Part shown: piece after piece, positions 11,429-32,302 of the stretch
How positions within the stretch are numbered: the stretch's first letter is position 1
Layout of the letters: each line of letters opens with the position of its first letter
Assembly (NCBI GenBank): GCA_021828055.1
Contig: JAKATH010000005.1
Span: 1 to 34,627, forward strand
DNA length: 34,627 nucleotides
Direction: 5' to 3'
Source: Actinomycetes bacterium
GTDB lineage: Bacteria; Actinomycetota; Acidimicrobiia; Acidimicrobiales; RAAP-2
Notes under the pieces: model-generated
What the model was told of the DNA's origin: nothing
What the model saw: only the letters and a program-made list of their open reading frames with translations
The model's database searches: none
Translations under genes and position numbers: made by a program

Positions 11429-12787
11429 TCACAGCGAGGCGATCAAGCGCTCCACCCGATCGTCGTGCGAGCGGAACGGATCCTTCAACAGCACCGTGCG
11501 CTGCGCCTGGTCGTTCAGCTTGAGATGGACCCAGTCGACGGTGAAGTCGCGCCGGCACTCCTTCGCACGGCGCACGAAGGCGCCCCGCAACCGCGCTCTC
11601 GTCGTCTGCGGAGGCTCGGTCATGGCCGCCGCGATGTCGGGGTCCGCGCAGGTGCGGTCCACCTGGTCGCGGGCCTGGAGCTTGTAGAAGAGCCCCCGGC
11701 TCCGGTCCACGTCGTGGTACATGAGGTCCACGAGCGCGGCCTTCGGGTGGGACAGCGGGAGGCCGTGCCGCCGGCGGACCTGGTCGATGAGGCGGAACTT
11801 CGCGACCCAGTCGCACTCCCGCCACAAGGAGAGCGGGTCGGACTCGAGGCCCTTCAGGCAGTGCTGCCACATCTCGAGGGCCCGCTCCTCTTCGGGGCCG
11901 AGCCCGTGGCGGTCCCGGAAGCGCAGCGCCCGCTCGAGGTACTCCATCTGGATGTCGAGCGCCCTCATCTCCCGGCCGTTGGCCAGCCGGACCCGGCGCT
12001 CGCAGGTGACGTCGTGGCTGATCTCACGGATGGCGCGGATCGGGTTCTCGAGGGTGAGGTCGCGCAGCACCGTGCCGGTGTCCTCCAGCATGGAGAGCAG
12101 GATGCTCGTCGTGCCGACCTTGAGGTACGTCGCGTACTCGCTCATGTTCGAGTCGCCGACGATGACGTGCAAGCGGCGGTAGCGCTCCGCGTCCGCGTGG
12201 GGCTCGTCGCGGGTGTTGATGATCGGGCGGCTGCGCGTGGTGGCGGACGACACTCCCTCCCAGATGTGCTCCGCCCGCTGGCTGATGCAGTAGACCGCGC
12301 CCCGCGCCGTCTGGAGGACCTTGCCCGCCCCCGCGTAGATCTGCCGGCTCACGAGGAAGGGGATGAGCACCTCGGTGTACCGGTTGAAGTCGTCGTTGCG
12401 CTCGGTGAGGTAGTTCTCGTGGCAGCCGTAGGAGTTGCCGGCGGAGTCGGTGTTGTTCTTGAAGAGGTAGACGTCGCCGCGGATCCCCTCTTCGCGGAGT
12501 CGGGCCTGCGCGCCCGCGACGAGCTGGGAGAGGATCCACTCCCCGGCCTTGTCGTGCACCACGAGGTCTCCGACGCGGTCGCACTCGGGCGTCGCGTACT
12601 CCGGGTGGCTGCCGACGTCCAGGTAGAGCCGCGCGCCGTTCTCCAAGAAGACGTTGGACGAGCGGCCCCAGCTGACCACGCGACGGAACAGGTAGCGGGC
12701 CACCTCGTCCGGGCTGAGCCGGCGCTGGCCGCGCAGGGTGAAGGTCACCCCGTACTCGTTCTCGAGCCCGAAGATCCGCCGTTCCAC
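11429..12787 (-). CDS. pafA: Pup-protein ligase PafA
   Basis: Protein of 452 residues, family length. It starts [16 protein letters not shown] with the catalytic glutamate-containing motif shared by the glutamine-synthetase-like PafA/Dop fold. It contains [54 protein letters not shown] and a C-terminal [10 protein letters not shown]. It joins the C-terminal glutamate of Pup to substrate lysines with ATP. The N-terminal FGLENEYG and shorter length separate it from Dop at 14875-16365. It follows prcA by 66 nt, and lepB follows after 116 nt. Confidence 0.97.
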
Positions 12788-12853
12788 GTAGCCACGGTAG
12801 TGCCGACCAACCCGGGCCGAGGCGCACGCGGCGGCGCGCCCCGCACGCGGGTG

Positions 12854-13663
12854 TCAGCCCGGCGGCGGCGCTGCGTCCCCGTCCTGGGCGGCGTCCCCAC
12901 CGACGCCGCCGCCCGCCGATCGGGTGGTGCGACCGCCCCGGGTCGACCGTGGCGTCTGGCCGGCGTCCGCCGGCGTGGCGGAGCCCCCGGAGAGGATCTC
13001 GGAGAGCTCGGCGTCGGTGACCCTGCGGAAGGTGCGCCGGCCGTTCGCCCGGCTGAGGATCGCCACCTCGAGGTCGCCTGATCCGAGGGTCCGGTCGGGG
13101 CCGGCGAGCGCCCGCACCGCCGCGCGGACGGCCTCGGCGCGGTCGCGGTCGCCGCGCCAGTCGGCGCCGACCCGCTCGGAGATGGTCTCCGCGTCGCCTC
13201 CCAGCACGGCATAGCGGTCCTCGTCGGTGATGGTGCCCTCGTAGGCGATGTGGTAGAGCTGGTCGGGCTTGCCGTTCGTCCCGAGCTCGGCGACGAGGAT
13301 CTCCACCTCGAGCGGCTTCATCTCGTGGGTGAAGACGTTCCCCAGGTACTGCGCGTACAGGTTGGCGAGGGAGCGCGCGTCGACGTCCTCGCGGCTGAAG
13401 GCGAAGCCTTTCGTGTCGGCGTGCCGCACGCCGGCGACGCGCAGCTGGTCGTACTCGTTGTACTTGCCGACGCCGGCGAACGCGATGCGGTCGTAGATCT
13501 CGCTGATCTTGTGGAGCGAGCGCGAAGGGTTCTCGGCCACGATGAGCACGCCCTCGGCGAAGACGGTGGCGATCAGCGAGCGTCCCCGGGCGATGCCCTT
13601 CTGGGCGTACTCGGCCCGGTCCTTCATCACCTGCTCCGGCGCGACGTAGAACGGCATCGTCAT
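12854..13663 (-). CDS. prcA: proteasome subunit alpha
   Basis: Protein of 269 residues. The N-terminus MTMPFYVAPEQVMKDRAEYAQKGIARGRSLIA is the actinobacterial alpha-subunit gate and H0 helix. The body follows the alpha fold (VGKYNEYDQLRVAGVRHADTKG, FSREDVDARSLANLYAQYLG). Residues 230-269 are a low-complexity Gly/Ala/Thr-rich tail. Alpha rings cap the 20S core and dock Mpa/ARC. The ATG at 13663 has a strong GGAGGTGA 7-8 nt upstream; a second in-frame ATG is at 13657. Its ATG overlaps the TGA of the last mini-ORF of the ladder between prcB and prcA. Confidence 0.97.
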   Translation of the reverse strand: MTMPFYVAPEQVMKDRAEYAQKGIARGRSLIATVFAEGVLIVAENPSRSLHKISEIYDRIAFAGVGKYNEYDQLRVAGVRHADTKGFAFSREDVDARSLANLYAQYLGNVFTHEMKPLEVEILVAELGTNGKPDQLYHIAYEGTITDEDRYAVLGGDAETISERVGADWRGDRDRAEAVRAAVRALAGPDRTLGSGDLEVAILSRANGRRTFRRVTDAELSEILSGGSATPADAGQTPRSTRGGRTTRSAGGGVGGDAAQDGDAAPPPG

Positions 13664-13684
13664 GCCGGCTCACCTCCGCCCGGC

Positions 13685-13814
13685 GCGCTCCTGGTCACGT
13701 CGCGCTCCTGGTCACGTCGCGCTCGGTCCGCTTCTGGTCACGTCGCGCTCCTGGTCACGTCGCGCTCCTGGTCACGTCGCGCTCCTGGTCACGTCGCGCT
13801 CGGTCCGCTTCCGG
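13685..13814 (-). repeat. 17-bp tandem array forming a GTGA ladder from prcB to prcA
   Basis: On the minus strand five 17-bp units GACGTGACCAGGAGCGC run from 13795 to 13685, with one 26-bp variant (13744-13719) between the third and fourth. The prcB stop (13774-13772) lies in the second unit and overlaps a GTG. From there GTG-to-TGA frames of 6, 6, 9, 6 and 12 codons follow, each TGA sharing bases with the next GTG, and the last TGA (13662-13660) overlapping the prcA ATG. Most units carry AGGAG 6 nt before the next GTG. The segments 13719-13737 and 13796-13814 are near-identical, giving a 77-bp super-period. Confidence 0.9.
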
Positions 13815-14578
13815 TCGATGAGGGCCTTGAAGCGGCCGGCGACCTCCTCCTCGGGCACCTCCGCGTACCCCTGCGCGGTCACGACCGCGACCGTCGGGTA
13901 GATGCCGCGGACGACGTCCGGGCCGCCGGTCCCCGAGTCCTCGTCCGCCGCCTCGTAGAGCGCCTGGATGGCGAGCTCGACGGCCTCGGCGCGCGACAGG
14001 CCCTCGCGGAACCCGAGCTTGAGCGTGGTGCGCGCGTCCCGGCCACCCGAGCCGGTCGCCTGGTAGTCCGCCTCCTCGTAGTGGCCGCCGGTCACGTCGT
14101 AGCTGAAGATGCGCCCCGCCCCCTTCCCTGTGTCGTAGCCGGCGAACAGAGGGACGACCGCGAGGCCCTGCATCGCGAGCGGGAGCTGCTGGCGCACCAT
14201 CTGGGCGAGCTGGTTCGCCTTCCCCTCGAGGCTGAGCGTGACGCCCTCGACCTTCTCGTAGTGCTCGAGCTGGGTCTGGAAGAGGCGGACCATCTCGACG
14301 GCGAACCCGGCGGCGCCGGCGATCGCGACCGCGGAGAGGCGGTCGGCCGGGAAGACCTTCTCCATGGCCCGGTGCGCGATGGTGTGGCCCTCCGTCGCGC
14401 GGCGGTCGCCGGCCATCACGATCCCGTCCGCGAAGCGCAGCGCGGCGACGGTGGTGGCGTGGCGCACCGACAGCGCGACGTCCGCCGCCGCCGGCACGGC
14501 GGGGAGGCCGCTGCCCCGCAGCAGGCTGGAGAAGTCCGGTCCGGGGTCTTCGGTCGGTGGGAAGAGCGGGAGCGCCAC
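13772..14578 (-). CDS. prcB: proteasome subunit beta
   Basis: Protein of 268 residues from GTG 14578. Residues 1-41 are the propeptide; the mature protein should begin at Thr42 in RHATTVAALRF, the N-terminal nucleophile threonine of beta subunits. The -1 residue is Ala, where actinobacterial beta subunits often have Gly. Downstream motifs DGIVMAGDRRATEGHTIA, AIAGAAGFAVEMVRL and GSGGRDARTTLKLGF are typical. It is the proteolytic subunit of the 20S core. It starts 6 nt after pup stops. The last codons (GACGTGACCAGGAGCGC...) belong to the tandem array that continues to prcA. Confidence 0.97.
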   Translation of the reverse strand: MALPLFPPTEDPGPDFSSLLRGSGLPAVPAAADVALSVRHATTVAALRFADGIVMAGDRRATEGHTIAHRAMEKVFPADRLSAVAIAGAAGFAVEMVRLFQTQLEHYEKVEGVTLSLEGKANQLAQMVRQQLPLAMQGLAVVPLFAGYDTGKGAGRIFSYDVTGGHYEEADYQATGSGGRDARTTLKLGFREGLSRAEAVELAIQALYEAADEDSGTGGPDVVRGIYPTVAVVTAQGYAEVPEEEVAGRFKALIDRKRTERDVTRSAT

Positions 14579-14584
14579 CGGGTG

Positions 14585-14782
14585 CTACTGCCCGCCCTTC
14601 TGGACGTAGTTGCGGACGAACTCCTCGGCGTTGTCCTCCAGGACCTCGTCGATCTCGTCCATCAGGTCGTCGAGCTCTGCCTTGATCTTCTCGCCGCGCT
14701 CGGACGCGGCCGGCGCCTCCTCGACCACCTCGGTCTCGGTGCGAGCCGGCGCGCTCTTGCGCTTCAACTCCCGCTCAGCCAT
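14585..14782 (-). CDS. pup: prokaryotic ubiquitin-like protein Pup
   Basis: Protein of 65 residues, the standard length. It ends VQKGGQ, so the C-terminal Gln must be deamidated by Dop before PafA can ligate it. The central ERGEKIKAELDDLMDEIDEVLEDNAEEFVRNYV region is the helix-forming part that binds the Mpa coiled coil. ATG 14782 has AGGGGA about 8 nt upstream. The 92-nt gap to dop contains GATAAGACAT, which could be a -10 region for a pup-prcBA transcript, and a 24-codon ORF (14878-14804) whose GTG overlaps the dop stop. Confidence 0.98.
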   Translation of the reverse strand: MAERELKRKSAPARTETEVVEEAPAASERGEKIKAELDDLMDEIDEVLEDNAEEFVRNYVQKGGQ

Positions 14783-14860
14783 CCAGTCGTCCCCTCGTGT
14801 ACCTCAATGTCTTATCTCGGCTGCCGACGCTCCGGGTGTCATTGCGCCGAAACGTCCTCT

Positions 14861-14880
14861 GGAGTCACGCGGAGTCACGC
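14861..14880 (-). repeat. 10-bp duplication containing the dop stop codon
   Basis: Two copies of ggagtcacgc (minus GCGTGACTCC) at 14861 and 14871. The dop TGA (14877-14875) lies in the upstream copy and overlaps a GTG. That GTG opens a 24-codon frame ending at 14804, 21 nt before pup; whether it is translated cannot be told. Confidence 0.85.
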
Positions 14881-16365
14881 GCTCAGCCGCTCCAGCAGCT
14901 CCGCGGGGCTCGCGCTCGCCTCCAGGAGCGCCGCGGTGTGGGCAGCCGTCCCCCTTAGGGGGTCCATCATAGGGACGCGCCGGAGCGGGTCGGTGCCCAG
15001 GTCGAACACGAGCGAGTCCCAGTTGGCGGTCACGACGGCCTCGGGCCACTTGGCGAGGCACTGACCACGGAACCACGCCCGCGTGTCGGCCGGCGGCGTT
15101 GTCACCGCGGCGGCGACGGCCTCGTCGTCGACCAGCCGCTCCATGTCCAGGCGGGCGAAGAGCGAGCGCGAGGGCCGCAGGTCGTGGTACTGGAGGTCCA
15201 GGGCGGCGAGCCGGCTGTCCCCCCACTCGCAGCCGTGGCGCTCGCGGTAGGCCTCGACGATCCGGCGCTTGGCCACCCAGTCGAGCTGCCGTGCCAGCGT
15301 GGAGGGGTCCTGCTCGAGCCCGTGGAGCACCGCCTCCCATCGCTGGAGGACCTGCTCCCCCACCTCGTCGTTGCCGAGCACCGCGAGCCCGTGGTGGTCG
15401 GCGTACTTGCGGGCAGCCGTGTACAGCTCCCATTGCACGGCGAGGGCGGTGGCCGTCGAGCCGTCCGCCATCGCGAGGGGTCGGGCGAGGGTGAGGTCCG
15501 TCGACACCTGGTGCAGGGACCTGACGGGGTCTGCGGGGGTGAGGTCGCGGGGCGGCGAGACGTCGTCTTCGACCATGGCGAGGAGGAGCGCCGTCGTGCC
15601 GACCTTGAGGAAGGTGGCCACCTCCGCGAGGTTGGCGTCGCCCACGATCACGTGGAGCCGGCGGAACCGCCGCGGGTCGGCGTGGGGCTCGTCGCGGGTG
15701 TTCACGATCGGCCGCTTGAGCGTGGTCTCGAGACCGATGACCTCTTCGAAGAACTCCGCCCGCTGGGAGATCTGGAAGGTGACCGCCGACCTGTCGAGCG
15801 CGGCGGTCTCCGCCCCGACCTTGCCCGCGCCGGTGAACACCTGCCGGGTGACGAAGTGCGGGACGATCGCGGCCGCGACCTTCGCGAAGGGGACGGCGCG
15901 GTCCATGAGGTAGTTCTCGTGGCAGCCGTAGGAGTTGCCCTTGCCGTCGGAGTTGTTCTTGTAGACGACGACCCCCGGCGCGCTCGGGAAGACGTGCGCG
16001 GCGGCGCGCATCGAGCGGCGGAGCACCTCCTCGCCGGCCTTGTCGTAGAGGACGCAGCTGAGTGGGTCGGCGCACTCGGGCGACGAGTACTCGGGGTGGG
16101 CGTGGTCGACGTAGTAGCGCGCCCCGTTCGTGAGGACGGTGTTGGCGAGATGGGTCTCGACGACCGGGGCGAGCGACCCTTCGCGCGTGAAGCCTCGCGC
16201 GTCGTGAGCCGGTGTCTCGTCCTCGAAGTCCCAGTCGGTGCGCCGCTCGGCCTCGGTCGCGTAGGCGTTCACGAGGACGGACGACGCAGTGATCGGGTTC
16301 CCGTCGCCGCCCGGCGCGTGGATGCCGTACTCGGTCTCGATCCCGCACACCTTGGGGATGGCCAC
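14875..16365 (-). CDS. dop: Pup deamidase/depupylase Dop
   Basis: Protein of 496 residues from GTG 16365. It is homologous to PafA but carries the Dop form of the N-terminal motif (CGIETEYGI) followed by the Dop-specific loop region HAPGGDGNPITASSVLVNAY. It also has [54 protein letters not shown] and DWDSL-like NWDSLVFDLG near the end. It converts Pup-Gln to Pup-Glu and removes Pup from substrates. An AGGTAGGG stretch lies about 9 nt before the GTG. It follows mpa across the 46-bp repeat array, and its own stop is duplicated. Confidence 0.97.
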   Translation of the reverse strand: MAIPKVCGIETEYGIHAPGGDGNPITASSVLVNAYATEAERRTDWDFEDETPAHDARGFTREGSLAPVVETHLANTVLTNGARYYVDHAHPEYSSPECADPLSCVLYDKAGEEVLRRSMRAAAHVFPSAPGVVVYKNNSDGKGNSYGCHENYLMDRAVPFAKVAAAIVPHFVTRQVFTGAGKVGAETAALDRSAVTFQISQRAEFFEEVIGLETTLKRPIVNTRDEPHADPRRFRRLHVIVGDANLAEVATFLKVGTTALLLAMVEDDVSPPRDLTPADPVRSLHQVSTDLTLARPLAMADGSTATALAVQWELYTAARKYADHHGLAVLGNDEVGEQVLQRWEAVLHGLEQDPSTLARQLDWVAKRRIVEAYRERHGCEWGDSRLAALDLQYHDLRPSRSLFARLDMERLVDDEAVAAAVTTPPADTRAWFRGQCLAKWPEAVVTANWDSLVFDLGTDPLRRVPMMDPLRGTAAHTAALLEASASPAELLERLSA

Positions 16366-16378
16366 GGTGGGACCCTAC

Positions 16379-16520
16379 CTGCTCGTCACCTCACCGGTAC
16401 CTGCCAGGTGCTGGCCGGTGCTGGCCGGTGCTGGCCGGTGCTGGCCTGCTCGTCACCTCACAGGTACTGGCCGGTGCTGGCCGGTGCTGGCCTGCTCGTC
16501 ACCTCACAGGTACTGGCCGG
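16379..16520 (-). repeat. 46-bp tandem array containing the mpa stop codon, GTGA ladder to dop
   Basis: Three copies of a unit beginning ctgctcgtcacctca at 16492 (the mpa 3' end), 16446 (46 bp) and 16379 (67 bp, expanded by extra ctggccggtg microrepeats). Each carries GTGAGGTGA on the minus strand. From the mpa stop (16506-16504) frames of 2, 14, 2, 21, 2 and 4 codons follow, each linked to the next by GTGA; the last ends with TAG at 16377-16375, 9 nt before the dop GTG. The 14-codon frame reads VTSRPAPASTGQYL, repeating the Mpa C-terminal GQYL. Confidence 0.9.
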
Positions 16521-20952: not shown

Positions 20953-21040
20953 CAGGCCCGGCGCGGGAGACCCAGGCCCGGCGCGGGAGCCTCAGGCCCG
21001 GCGCGGGAGCCTCAGGTCCGGCGCGGGAGCCTCAGGTCCG
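20953..21040 (-). repeat. 20-bp tandem array containing the thioesterase stop codon
   Basis: Four 20-bp units caggcccggcgcgggagcct (with small changes) start at 20953, 20973, 20993 and 21013, followed by the coding end of the thioesterase at 21033. On the minus strand the stop lies in CCGGACCTGAGG, and the same CTGAGG recurs in the units past the stop. Confidence 0.9.
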
Positions 21041-21466
21041 GTCGGAGATGAGGTAGGTGGAGGTCGCCCGGGCCAGCGCGACCCCGTCCTCGCCGCGGAG
21101 CGTCGCCTCGACGAACGCGACGCGTGCGCCTCCCGAGACGACCTCGGCCTCGCAGGTGAGCCGTGCGCCGACCTGAACCGGGCGGAGGAAGCTCACCTTC
21201 ATCTCGACGTTCGACACGCTGACGGGGCGGCCGCGAGCGAACGTGACCGCGGACGCGCCCATCGCGGAGTCGCAGCAAGCGGCCACGAAGCCGCCCTGGA
21301 TCACCCCCGCGGGGTTGGCGAAGCGCTCGTGCGCCTGGATCCGCCACACCGTTCGCCCGGGCTCCGACTTGTCCGCGCAGACCATGCCCAGGGTCAGGTC
21401 GCAGTTCGGCGGCACCTGCAACGCCAACAACACCCGGCCGAGCGTACTGGGTATGTTGGGCCGCAT
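21032..21466 (-). CDS. PaaI-like hotdog-fold thioesterase
   Basis: Protein of 144 residues from ATG 21466, or 133 from GTG 21433. It has the hotdog central helix motif NPAGVIQGGFVAACCDSAMGAS, matching the PaaI pattern HGGxxxxLxDxAxG with the His replaced by Gln and the Asp kept, and SNVEMKVSFLRPVQVGARLTCEAEVV. Such enzymes hydrolyse acyl-CoA thioesters; the substrate is unknown. The ATG (21466-21464) shares bases with the plus-strand tkt ATG (21465-21467), which is unlikely if both starts are right, so one of the two genes probably starts further in. Confidence 0.87.
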   Translation of the reverse strand: MRPNIPSTLGRVLLALQVPPNCDLTLGMVCADKSEPGRTVWRIQAHERFANPAGVIQGGFVAACCDSAMGASAVTFARGRPVSVSNVEMKVSFLRPVQVGARLTCEAEVVSGGARVAFVEATLRGEDGVALARATSTYLISDRT

Positions 21467-30220: not shown

Positions 30221-32302
30221 CGCCGCGCCCGCCGCGACCGCCTGTGCCCACGTGTAGGAGAGCGGCGGCAGGTCGCCCGGGTCCTGGACCGCGACGAGCA
30301 GCTCGCTCATGCTCTGGAGCCCCGACGCCTGCTGGACGTCGCCCGCGCCCATCACGAGGGTGCCCCCGTAGCCGGAGGTGAGCTCGTTGTCGCGGTGGCC
30401 CCAGCACCCGCTCGCAGCCGGCGACGTGCAGTCGGCGTTGTAGCCGCCGTAGCCGTCGTCGTACATCCATGTGTAGTTGGCGTCGAGCGCGTTGAGCGCG
30501 CCGCTCACGACGTTGGACCCCCACCAGTTCGACGACGGGACGGCCGAGAAGCTGAACTGCGGGTCGGTGCCCGCCGCGGCGCCCGCCTGGGCGTAGCCGT
30601 CGAGGAGCGGCGAGAGCCCGACGACCGGCGACTCGCCGCGGCTCACGCGCTCGATGTCGGTCACGACGAAGAGCTGCTCCTCGGGGGTGAGCGAGGCGTA
30701 GTCGGAGGGCAGCCGGACCGGCCCGAGCCCCTCGGAGGCTCGGGCGTTGTCCGTCGCAGCGACCTCGGCAGCCACGCACGGCGCCCCGGCGACCGGGGTC
30801 CACGCGGACGACCCCATCCGCCAGCACGGGAGCGAGCTGGACGCGCCGTAGCTCACGCGAGCCTGGAAGGTGTACGCGGGGACCGGCGCGATGTCCGCCG
30901 GCGGGTTGGCCGGCGGCTGGTTGGCCGGCGGCGCTGGTGGCGGCGCCTTCGAGGTCGGCGGCTGCGCAGGGGTCGTGGGCGCGTTCGCGGCGGTCGGCTT
31001 CGCGGCGGTCGGCTTCGCGGCAGGTGGCTTCGCGGCAGGTGGCTTCGCGGCCGCCGGCTTCGCGGCGGGTGGCCTCGCGCTCGGAGGCGCGTCGGTCGTC
31101 GACGGTTTGTTCGTGATCGAGGGCCTCGCGCTCGGAGGCGCGTCGGTCGTCGACGGCCCGTTCGTGATCGAGGGCCTCGCGCTCGGCGGCGCGTGGGTCG
31201 TCGGGGGTCTCTTCGTGGTCGACGGCCTCGCGCTCGACGGCCTGACGGTGGGCGTCGACTCCCGGGCGTGCGTCGGAGACGTCGTCACCGCGACCCTCGC
31301 CGCGCCCGCGAACCGCGCGTGCCCGAACCGGTAGACGGCGCCGTCGGCGGCGACCTCCCAGTACCCCCTGCCCTTCGGTGTCGCGGCGATCCCCGTGATC
31401 GGCGAGTGGAGCCGCCTGCCGCCGAGCGACCCGTAGAAGGGGGCGCGGAAGGCGAAGACCCCTCCGTCCTTGGCCACCTCCCAGTACCCCCTCCCGTCCG
31501 GCGCCGGCGCCATCCCGACGATCGGCGCCCTGAGGAGGCGACCCCCCATGGAGCCGTAGTACCTGGCGTCGCCGAAGCGGAAGATCCGCCCGTCGGCGCC
31601 CACCTCCCAGTAGCCCCGCCCGTCCGGCGTCGGCGCCATCCCGACGATCGGCGCCCGGAGGCGGCGACCGCCCATGGAGCCGTAGTACCTGGCGTCGCCG
31701 AAGCGGAAGATCCGCCCGTCGGCGCCCACCTCCCAGTAGCCCCGCCCCTCCGGCGTCGGCGCCATCCCGACGATCGGCGCCCGGAGTCGGCGACCCCCCA
31801 TGGACCCGTAGTACCTGGCGTCGCCGAAGCGGAAGATCCCCCCGCCCGCAGTCACCTCCCAGTACCCGCCGGTCGCAGGGTCGCCGGCCACACCGACGAC
31901 GCGGGCTCTCTTCGACCTGATCTCCATCGAGCCGAAGTAGGCGGCGCTGCCCGCGGCGAAGAGGCCGCCGTTCGATGCCACCTCCCAGTAGCCCCCCCCG
32001 CCGTCCGCGGCGGCGACGCCGACGACCTTCGCCTCGAGGGTGGTCGGGGACCGTTCCCGCCGCGTCGCGGCCGTCGCGGCGTGCTCTGCGGCCTTGGCCT
32101 GGGACGCAGGTCTTCGGTGGCGCGCCGTTGCCACGGCCACGCGGGCGCCGGCCTCCCCCGGCAGCCCCTTCCCCATCGAGTTGCCCATTGCGAGCGCCAG
32201 CGGCGACGCTCCGGCGCCGGCCACGAGCGCGGCGGCCACGCCGAGCGCGGCGCGGCTAAGGCGCGCGCGCCCGGCACGCCTGCCAAAAGGCCCGATCCCC
32301 AT
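30215..32302 (-). CDS. secreted GYWEV-repeat (propeller-like) protein with CAP-like C-terminus
   Basis: Protein of 695 residues from ATG 32302. The signal peptide is about residues 1-38 (RLSRAALGVAAALVAGAGASPLALA). Residues 92-335 hold six repeats of about 42 residues of the form IVGMAPTPDGRGYWEV, GADGRIFRFGDARYYGSMGG, probably a six-bladed propeller; such repeats are common in Acidimicrobiia surface proteins. A Pro/Ala/Lys/Thr linker follows to about residue 455. The last 200 residues (DNARASEGLGPVRLP..., WWGSNVVSGALNALD..., WMYDDGYGGYNADC, CWGHRDNELTS) resemble a divergent CAP/SCP domain. Likely exported; role in adhesion or wall binding is inference. Confidence 0.85.
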   Translation of the reverse strand: MGIGPFGRRAGRARLSRAALGVAAALVAGAGASPLALAMGNSMGKGLPGEAGARVAVATARHRRPASQAKAAEHAATAATRRERSPTTLEAKVVGVAAADGGGGYWEVASNGGLFAAGSAAYFGSMEIRSKRARVVGVAGDPATGGYWEVTAGGGIFRFGDARYYGSMGGRRLRAPIVGMAPTPEGRGYWEVGADGRIFRFGDARYYGSMGGRRLRAPIVGMAPTPDGRGYWEVGADGRIFRFGDARYYGSMGGRLLRAPIVGMAPAPDGRGYWEVAKDGGVFAFRAPFYGSLGGRRLHSPITGIAATPKGRGYWEVAADGAVYRFGHARFAGAARVAVTTSPTHARESTPTVRPSSARPSTTKRPPTTHAPPSARPSITNGPSTTDAPPSARPSITNKPSTTDAPPSARPPAAKPAAAKPPAAKPPAAKPTAAKPTAANAPTTPAQPPTSKAPPPAPPANQPPANPPADIAPVPAYTFQARVSYGASSSLPCWRMGSSAWTPVAGAPCVAAEVAATDNARASEGLGPVRLPSDYASLTPEEQLFVVTDIERVSRGESPVVGLSPLLDGYAQAGAAAGTDPQFSFSAVPSSNWWGSNVVSGALNALDANYTWMYDDGYGGYNADCTSPAASGCWGHRDNELTSGYGGTLVMGAGDVQQASGLQSMSELLVAVQDPGDLPPLSYTWAQAVAAGAAG
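31073..31225 (-). repeat. 51-bp tandem repeat in the linker of the GYWEV protein
   Basis: Units of 51 bp starting at 31073, 31124 and 31175 (the last diverged), encoding the 17-residue PSITNKPSTTDAPPSAR. Shorter AAKP repeats follow on the C-terminal side. Unit length is a multiple of three. Confidence 0.9.
31485..31860 (-). repeat. 126-bp near-identical propeller-blade repeats
   Basis: Three blades are almost identical at DNA level with 126-bp spacing: the atgga(g/c)cc landmark recurs at 31548, 31674 and 31800. Flanking blades are more diverged. This looks like recent blade duplication or homogenisation. Confidence 0.9.

Follow-up and report, generated by a model that had tools for sequence, protein, structure and literature searches.

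Mycobacterial interspersed repetitive units (MIRUs) reportedly go back to Supply et al. 1997. According to excerpts of PMC4213456, they are dispersed elements of 53-77 bp, tandem copies of 77 and 53 bp stand between senX3 and regX3, and both of these lengths are, by arithmetic, 2 modulo 3; excerpts of PMC12548453 describe a MIRU ORF as coupling at -4 to the gene at the insertion site. Coupling of this kind is strongest when the stop and start codons lie at -4 to +3 nt and declines with distance, and in native E. coli pairs a separation of +14 nt costs 40-80% of re-initiation and one of +38 nt nearly all of it (excerpts of PMC10666635); some studies, in the excerpted text of PMC12548453, report a weaker distance dependence. 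Short overlaps are enriched among the subunits of heteromeric complexes, again in the excerpts of PMC10666635. Most of the debate over whether a terminating ribosome requires an overlap or can get across a long gap has drawn on reporter constructs. Here, we describe a proteasome operon in a 34,627-nucleotide stretch of DNA, the whole of which is called the window, where the two subunit genes prcB and prcA no longer touch and a ladder of mini-ORFs, termed rungs, fills the space between them.

The prcB-prcA junction of the window and the origin of its array

The minus strand of the window carries the gene set mpa, dop, pup, prcB, prcA, and pafA. Mpa, Dop, PrcB, PrcA, and PafA pass the NCBIfam cut-offs, and pup was named by its position and its GGQ end, which we take to be a feature of Pup. 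The elements of the prcB-prcA junction are listed in Table 1.

Table 1. Elements of the prcB-prcA junction, in window coordinates
Feature	Position	Strand	Basis
prcB, proteasome beta subunit, shorter than in relatives	13772..14578	-	NCBIfam TIGR03690 above cut-off
prcA, proteasome alpha subunit	12854..13663	-	NCBIfam TIGR03691 above cut-off
Tandem array, six exact copies of a 17-bp unit; a 9-bp piece precedes copies 1 and 5	13684..13801	-	TRF and sequence reading
Rung 1, 6 codons, GTG start overlapping the prcB stop	13755..13775	-	read from sequence
Rung 2, 6 codons	13738..13758	-	read from sequence
Rung 3, 9 codons, includes the 9-bp piece	13712..13741	-	read from sequence
Rung 4, 6 codons, GTG without AGGAG, weakest start signal (-3.2 kcal/mol)	13695..13715	-	sequence and pairing energy
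Rung 5, 12 codons, codes the former prcB tail (...PGGGEPA), TGA overlaps the prcA ATG	13660..13698	-	sequence and relatives
GGAGGTGA, Shine-Dalgarno-like site of prcA, within rung 5	13670..13677	-	sequence reading

The spacer between the two genes measures 108 nt. By sequence reading, the prcB stop is the TGA at 13774-13772 on the minus strand, and GTGA sites start at 13792, 13775, 13758, 13741, 13715, and 13698 on the same strand, the first of them lying within prcB and in frame. The five frames of 6, 6, 9, 6, and 12 codons that an earlier note had traced from the prcB stop to prcA proved exact to the letter, and the overlaps that it described were read at all sites: each stop overlaps the next GTGA start, and the TGA of the last rung (13662-13660) overlaps the prcA ATG at 13663. 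The same note placed AGGAG six bases before most GTGs, and the motif does stand six bases 5' of the GTG at four of the six sites (13775, 13758, 13741, and 13698), being absent at 13792 and 13715. At each step of the ladder, the stop and start codons fall within about -4 to +3 nt of each other, the range given for coupling. The RNA fold of the array was not more stable than that of its shuffles (z -0.33), and an Rfam search of 12500-15000 returned nothing at gathering thresholds.

Successive GTGA sites are spaced by 17, 17, 17, 26, and 17 bases, the 26 arising because the 9-base piece before the fifth copy adds to the 17-mer; the same 9-mer also precedes the first copy. The assertion that these spacings are always 2 modulo 3 is therefore true of both values, but it states one fact, a unit of 17, and not six. 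Because the unit carries GTGA and its length is 2 modulo 3, each copy in the array creates a mini-ORF that begins in overlap with the preceding stop, and since one such unit yields every rung at once, the ladder alone is weak evidence. A whole-genome search placed the six exact copies of the unit inside the array and, at up to two mismatches, returned three single matches in the rest of the genome, each with two mismatches; with the 17-mer confined to the array, a dispersed origin was ruled out. The genome is a draft (2.64 Mb, 154 contigs, 84% complete), and exact repeats are the weak point of short-read assemblies, which would favor an error in the length or even the existence of the array. 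However, the array spans only 118 bp and holds two unit types, its 17-mer is not repeated elsewhere, and repeat-free relays are present in other genomes, and we give such an artefact almost no credence.

Other tandem repeats lie in the window as well. A 20-bp repeat of 4.4 copies (20953-21041) extends over the end of a minus-strand ORF stopping at 21012, and this ORF, mpa, and prcB make three window genes that end with a tandem repeat at the stop. A 126-bp repeat of about three copies with 93% matches (31474-31864) has a unit that is a multiple of three and is possibly coding. At 16365-16506 (minus strand), 46 bp from the end of mpa are duplicated in tandem, which places GTGAGGTGA mini-frames before dop; the mpa-dop junction was considered as a second relay and rejected, the chain there running, by eye, into a TAG before dop.

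The nearest relatives (L002, L003, and L031) have a PrcB that is 93% identical to that of the window, their prcB and prcA share a common ATGA, and their final PrcB residues resemble the product of rung 5 with its PGGGEPA end. Because of this resemblance, the array appears to have grown within the tail of prcB, shortening the gene and leaving the old tail as rung 5. The sample of the genus comprised 13 genomes, 9 of them with PrcA when the window's own is counted, and contained no second genome of the window's species. Direct overlap was found in seven of the eight genus relatives with a readable junction, and in the eighth (G006; L004 and L032) a 20-base duplication has produced a single rung of 7 codons; the five-rung ladder was absent from all eight. 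Judged against these relatives, the array is of recent and local origin, a tandem repeat whose growth broke an ancestral 4-base overlap between prcB and prcA.

Spacers in relatives, null models, and control junctions

Our survey covered 235 loci, 234 of which yielded a junction (L128, having no prcA, was dropped), and 182 of these junctions were distinct. They comprised 149 overlaps of 4 bases, 2 junctions scored as 1-base overlaps (for L197, 4 bases is more likely), 4 gaps of 0-2 nt, and 27 gaps of at least 10 nt. The ancestral arrangement is the overlap, with the stop of prcB and the start of prcA in a common ATGA or GTGA in most of the relatives read, where, by the mechanism described in the literature for overlapping genes, a ribosome ending PrcB could restart directly on PrcA. 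A further 69 loci from the genus and family, read with a script that favors a -4 or -1 start wherever one is present, gave 34 new distinct junctions, all at -4, together with 35 duplicates of known ones and no new spacer. The order sample of 30 + 100 loci represents part of the places in 381 order genomes with PrcB and therefore leans to PrcB like that of the window; 80 loci were chosen by similarity, their membership of the order being presumed, and some titles look mislabelled; the name of the order, Acidimicrobiales, is likewise deduced from those titles.

A spacer was called bridged when mini-ORFs overlapped the prcB stop at one end and the prcA start at the other. By this definition, 23 of the 27 spacers of at least 10 nt were bridged, and one further spacer from the same order (L339) was bridged too, giving 24/28 in total. 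The spacers are mostly unrelated, sharing few 11-mers, with L072/L124 and, to a lesser degree, L198/L201 as exceptions. The four unbridged spacers were those of L084, L090, L097, and L224, and in L090 a 4-codon frame stops, by eye, one base short of the prcA start. Relatives had been proposed as a check on the rule of 2 modulo 3: the bridged spacers fit it, and 4 of the 27 do not. On a quick FastTree tree built from up to about 250 residues, the relay state takes at least 19 changes, against a minimum of 4 for the unbridged state. A GAGCGAGC-type motif stands directly after the stop in L101, L169, L198, L201, L232, and the unbridged L084, perhaps as a set of related small repeats.

Shuffled prcB-prcA spacers (dinucleotides kept, 0-2 bases trimmed) were expected to be bridged in 7.7 of 27 cases when length was free (p about 2e-10 against the 23 seen) and in 17.4 of 27 when lengths were kept (p about 6e-5). 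Where random tandem duplications simulated in canonical junctions left a spacer, the fraction with a ladder was 0.30, or 0.23 for the genus relatives alone; at a rate of 0.30, 19 bridged among 23 state changes has a p of about 3e-7, under the simplification that each change is one origin. Spacers at this junction are biased toward relays.

The remaining junctions of the operon, where gaps reached at least 10 nt, were bridged in 8 of 280 cases (mpa-dop 0/65, dop-pup 4/91, pup-prcB 2/39, prcA-pafA 2/85). Among co-directional spacers of 10-200 nt genome-wide (400 kb from ten order genomes, read with a home-made gene caller and rough start sites), 2 of 90 were bridged and 2.0 were expected. In the same 90 spacers (L341-L360), the gap plus 4 was 2 modulo 3 in 44, above one third, which may stem from the rough starts. 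Outside the order, 57 prcB-prcA junctions included 14 gaps of at least 10 nt, only one of them bridged (L301), and L314 would join it if its prcA start lay a few codons further in; because relay-less spacers are normal there, proteasome operons at large can evidently work without a relay. The 30 loci read for trpB-trpA, another overlapping pair, comprised 21 with an in-frame start at -4 or -1, 4 with longer overlaps, 2 with short relays (gaps of 1 and 4 nt), and just three with gaps of at least 10 nt; none of these three is bridged at -4 or -1, although that of L373 seems, by eye, to end at -8. On these control counts, the bridging rule applies to junctions that usually overlap directly, and GC-rich spacers at large do not follow it. 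An ancestral overlap is absent from most of the control junctions, which therefore show that bridging is not generic but do not set prcB-prcA apart from other overlapping pairs.

The array could have arisen as a neutral by-product, with the repeat expanding, prcA being started de novo from its own Shine-Dalgarno site, and the ladder following idly from the 17-bp unit. Such a unit ladders automatically, simulated duplications do so at 0.30, the stretch upstream of the window's prcA has a strong pairing energy of its own (-10.8 kcal/mol), and the sister species differ, so that the array is recent. This account leaves unexplained, however, the 23 of 27 bridged and mostly unrelated spacers and the contrast with the control junctions, and we consider it unlikely, while noting that it could still hold for the window array alone. 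The excess over chance lies in the pattern across relatives and not in the window array by itself.

Rung numbers bear on the earlier proposal that copy number sets the beta:alpha ratio. They do vary between genomes, and some ribosomes may drop off at each step, which would let rung number act as a dial for PrcB:PrcA. However, 19 of the 23 bridged junctions have a single rung, L198 and L232 having 2 each, L101 3, and the window 5; the window's sister species are without rungs; the cases with several rungs (L001, L101, L198, and L232) look like repeat expansion; and the 20S core takes beta and alpha subunits 1:1. The proposal was not borne out, and such a dial is very unlikely.

Start signals and the proposed relay

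The mean anti-Shine-Dalgarno pairing energy was -9.1 kcal/mol at canonical prcA starts and -8.3 kcal/mol at prcA starts behind a relay, with no difference between the two (p 0.25), whereas first relay starts, at -7.5 kcal/mol, were weaker than canonical prcA starts (p 0.002). The background mean of -3.3 kcal/mol was weaker than both first relay starts and post-relay prcA starts, and because both exceed it, the relays have plausible start sites at either end. Against the relay reading stand the 4 of 27 unbridged spacers, the weaker first starts, a fourth rung that is nearly signal-less, and the strong Shine-Dalgarno site of prcA.

A relay that keeps the translation of prcA coupled to that of prcB is probably the best explanation of these data. 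In the course that we propose, a 17-bp stretch of the prcB tail would have expanded in the manner of slippage, shortening that gene and putting the spacer between it and prcA, and the unbroken chain of 4-base overlaps would pass a ribosome down five rungs to prcA. We conclude from the sequence comparisons that relay ORFs would hold prcA in reach of ribosomes terminating on prcB, and we infer from them that the rungs are translated, that re-initiation takes place, and that relay-less spacers are selected against, the bias in relatives arising because relay-less variants seem to be lost or rare. The step-by-step re-initiation suggested in the earlier note thus gains support from comparison, that is, from the 23 of 27 spacers and L339 set against shuffles, simulations, controls, and other lineages.

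Rungs could also serve to keep ribosomes on the spacer against Rho-type termination, with coupling as a secondary matter. Selection of that kind would likewise favor open, translated spacers, and several relays reach 25-58 codons; however, many have 5-20 codons and are too short to matter for Rho, an exact overlap with the prcA start would not be demanded, and long spacers elsewhere in the operon are unbridged, all of which makes the idea highly improbable.

For the order as a whole, we regard it as an evenly balanced proposition that selection on an unbroken stop-start chain holds the hand-over from beta to alpha, so that spacers persist almost only as relay ORFs, made repeatedly from unrelated DNA such as local repeats, dispersed MIRU-like cassettes, and other inserts, with the window as the longest cascade observed for this junction, at five re-initiations. 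Evolution has repeatedly parted prcB and prcA, mostly keeping an overlap chain in place of a plain spacer. If the rungs are indeed translated, these junctions would offer natural constructs, with 0 to 5 steps, from which the loss at each re-initiation could be measured, and mini-ORFs of this kind would deserve annotation as relays instead of being treated as noise.

Comparison with known systems

A search of the open-licence literature by title and the start of the abstract turned up papers on coupling and none on relay ORFs at prcB-prcA or between two genes, and no paper in that literature was found that brings together prcB, prcA, overlap, and translational coupling. Termination-reinitiation at 4-nt overlaps, as described in excerpts of PMC6728339 and PMC10666635, shares with the window the ATGA/GTGA overlap, a Shine-Dalgarno site inside the upstream ORF, and the subunits of a heteromeric complex. 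In those pairs, however, the genes touch, whereas prcB and prcA of the window do not, and the mini-ORF chain supplies the overlaps. Bicistronic designs and nfORFs (excerpts of PMC13255528 and PMC12548453) likewise rely on a short ORF that has no function of its own, contains a ribosome-binding site, and feeds the next gene, but these ORFs, often synthetic, are placed ahead of a target gene, whereas the mini-ORFs of the window link two structural genes. The array also resembles a minisatellite or VNTR in its head-to-tail 17-bp copies, a unit above 9 bp, and a likely origin by slippage, and differs from one in that only the window copies chain start and stop codons.

A second arrangement in the same order resembles the MIRUs in being dispersed. 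Genome G285 (L243-L270) carries a dispersed repeat of 59-60 bases at NTGA gene junctions, whose 18-base core has 35 matches at up to one mismatch against 1 for the reversed control, and which reaches four or five tandem copies, for example in L245, L251, and L266. Units of 59 bp give 20-codon rungs (MSERSERGPSGPAAGQERTA), while arrays of 60 bp merge to form a longer relay or to extend the frame. Of the 14 places read, which are part of the matches, 13 begin at an NTGA, and at 12 an open frame of 229 codons or more comes to its end there; rungs lead from 10 of the places into an open frame no shorter than 197 codons, 3 continue in frame into the open frame that follows, and L265 does neither. 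Two copies stand between prcB and prcA of this genome, and L251, elsewhere, also has five rungs. The repeat looks like an independent MIRU-like relay cassette outside the mycobacteria.

By its published description, the MIRU is a repeat between co-directional genes with an internal ORF that couples onward at -4, and the window array has the -4 overlap at both of its ends. MIRUs, however, are dispersed and 53-77 bp long, whereas the array has a 17-bp unit, is local, and comes from the tail of prcB, and most other prcB-prcA relays show no visible repeats at all. Thus the array, local and short, is not a MIRU, although it works in the same way. The feature in the window is real, and it would represent a relay form of overlap-based translational coupling.
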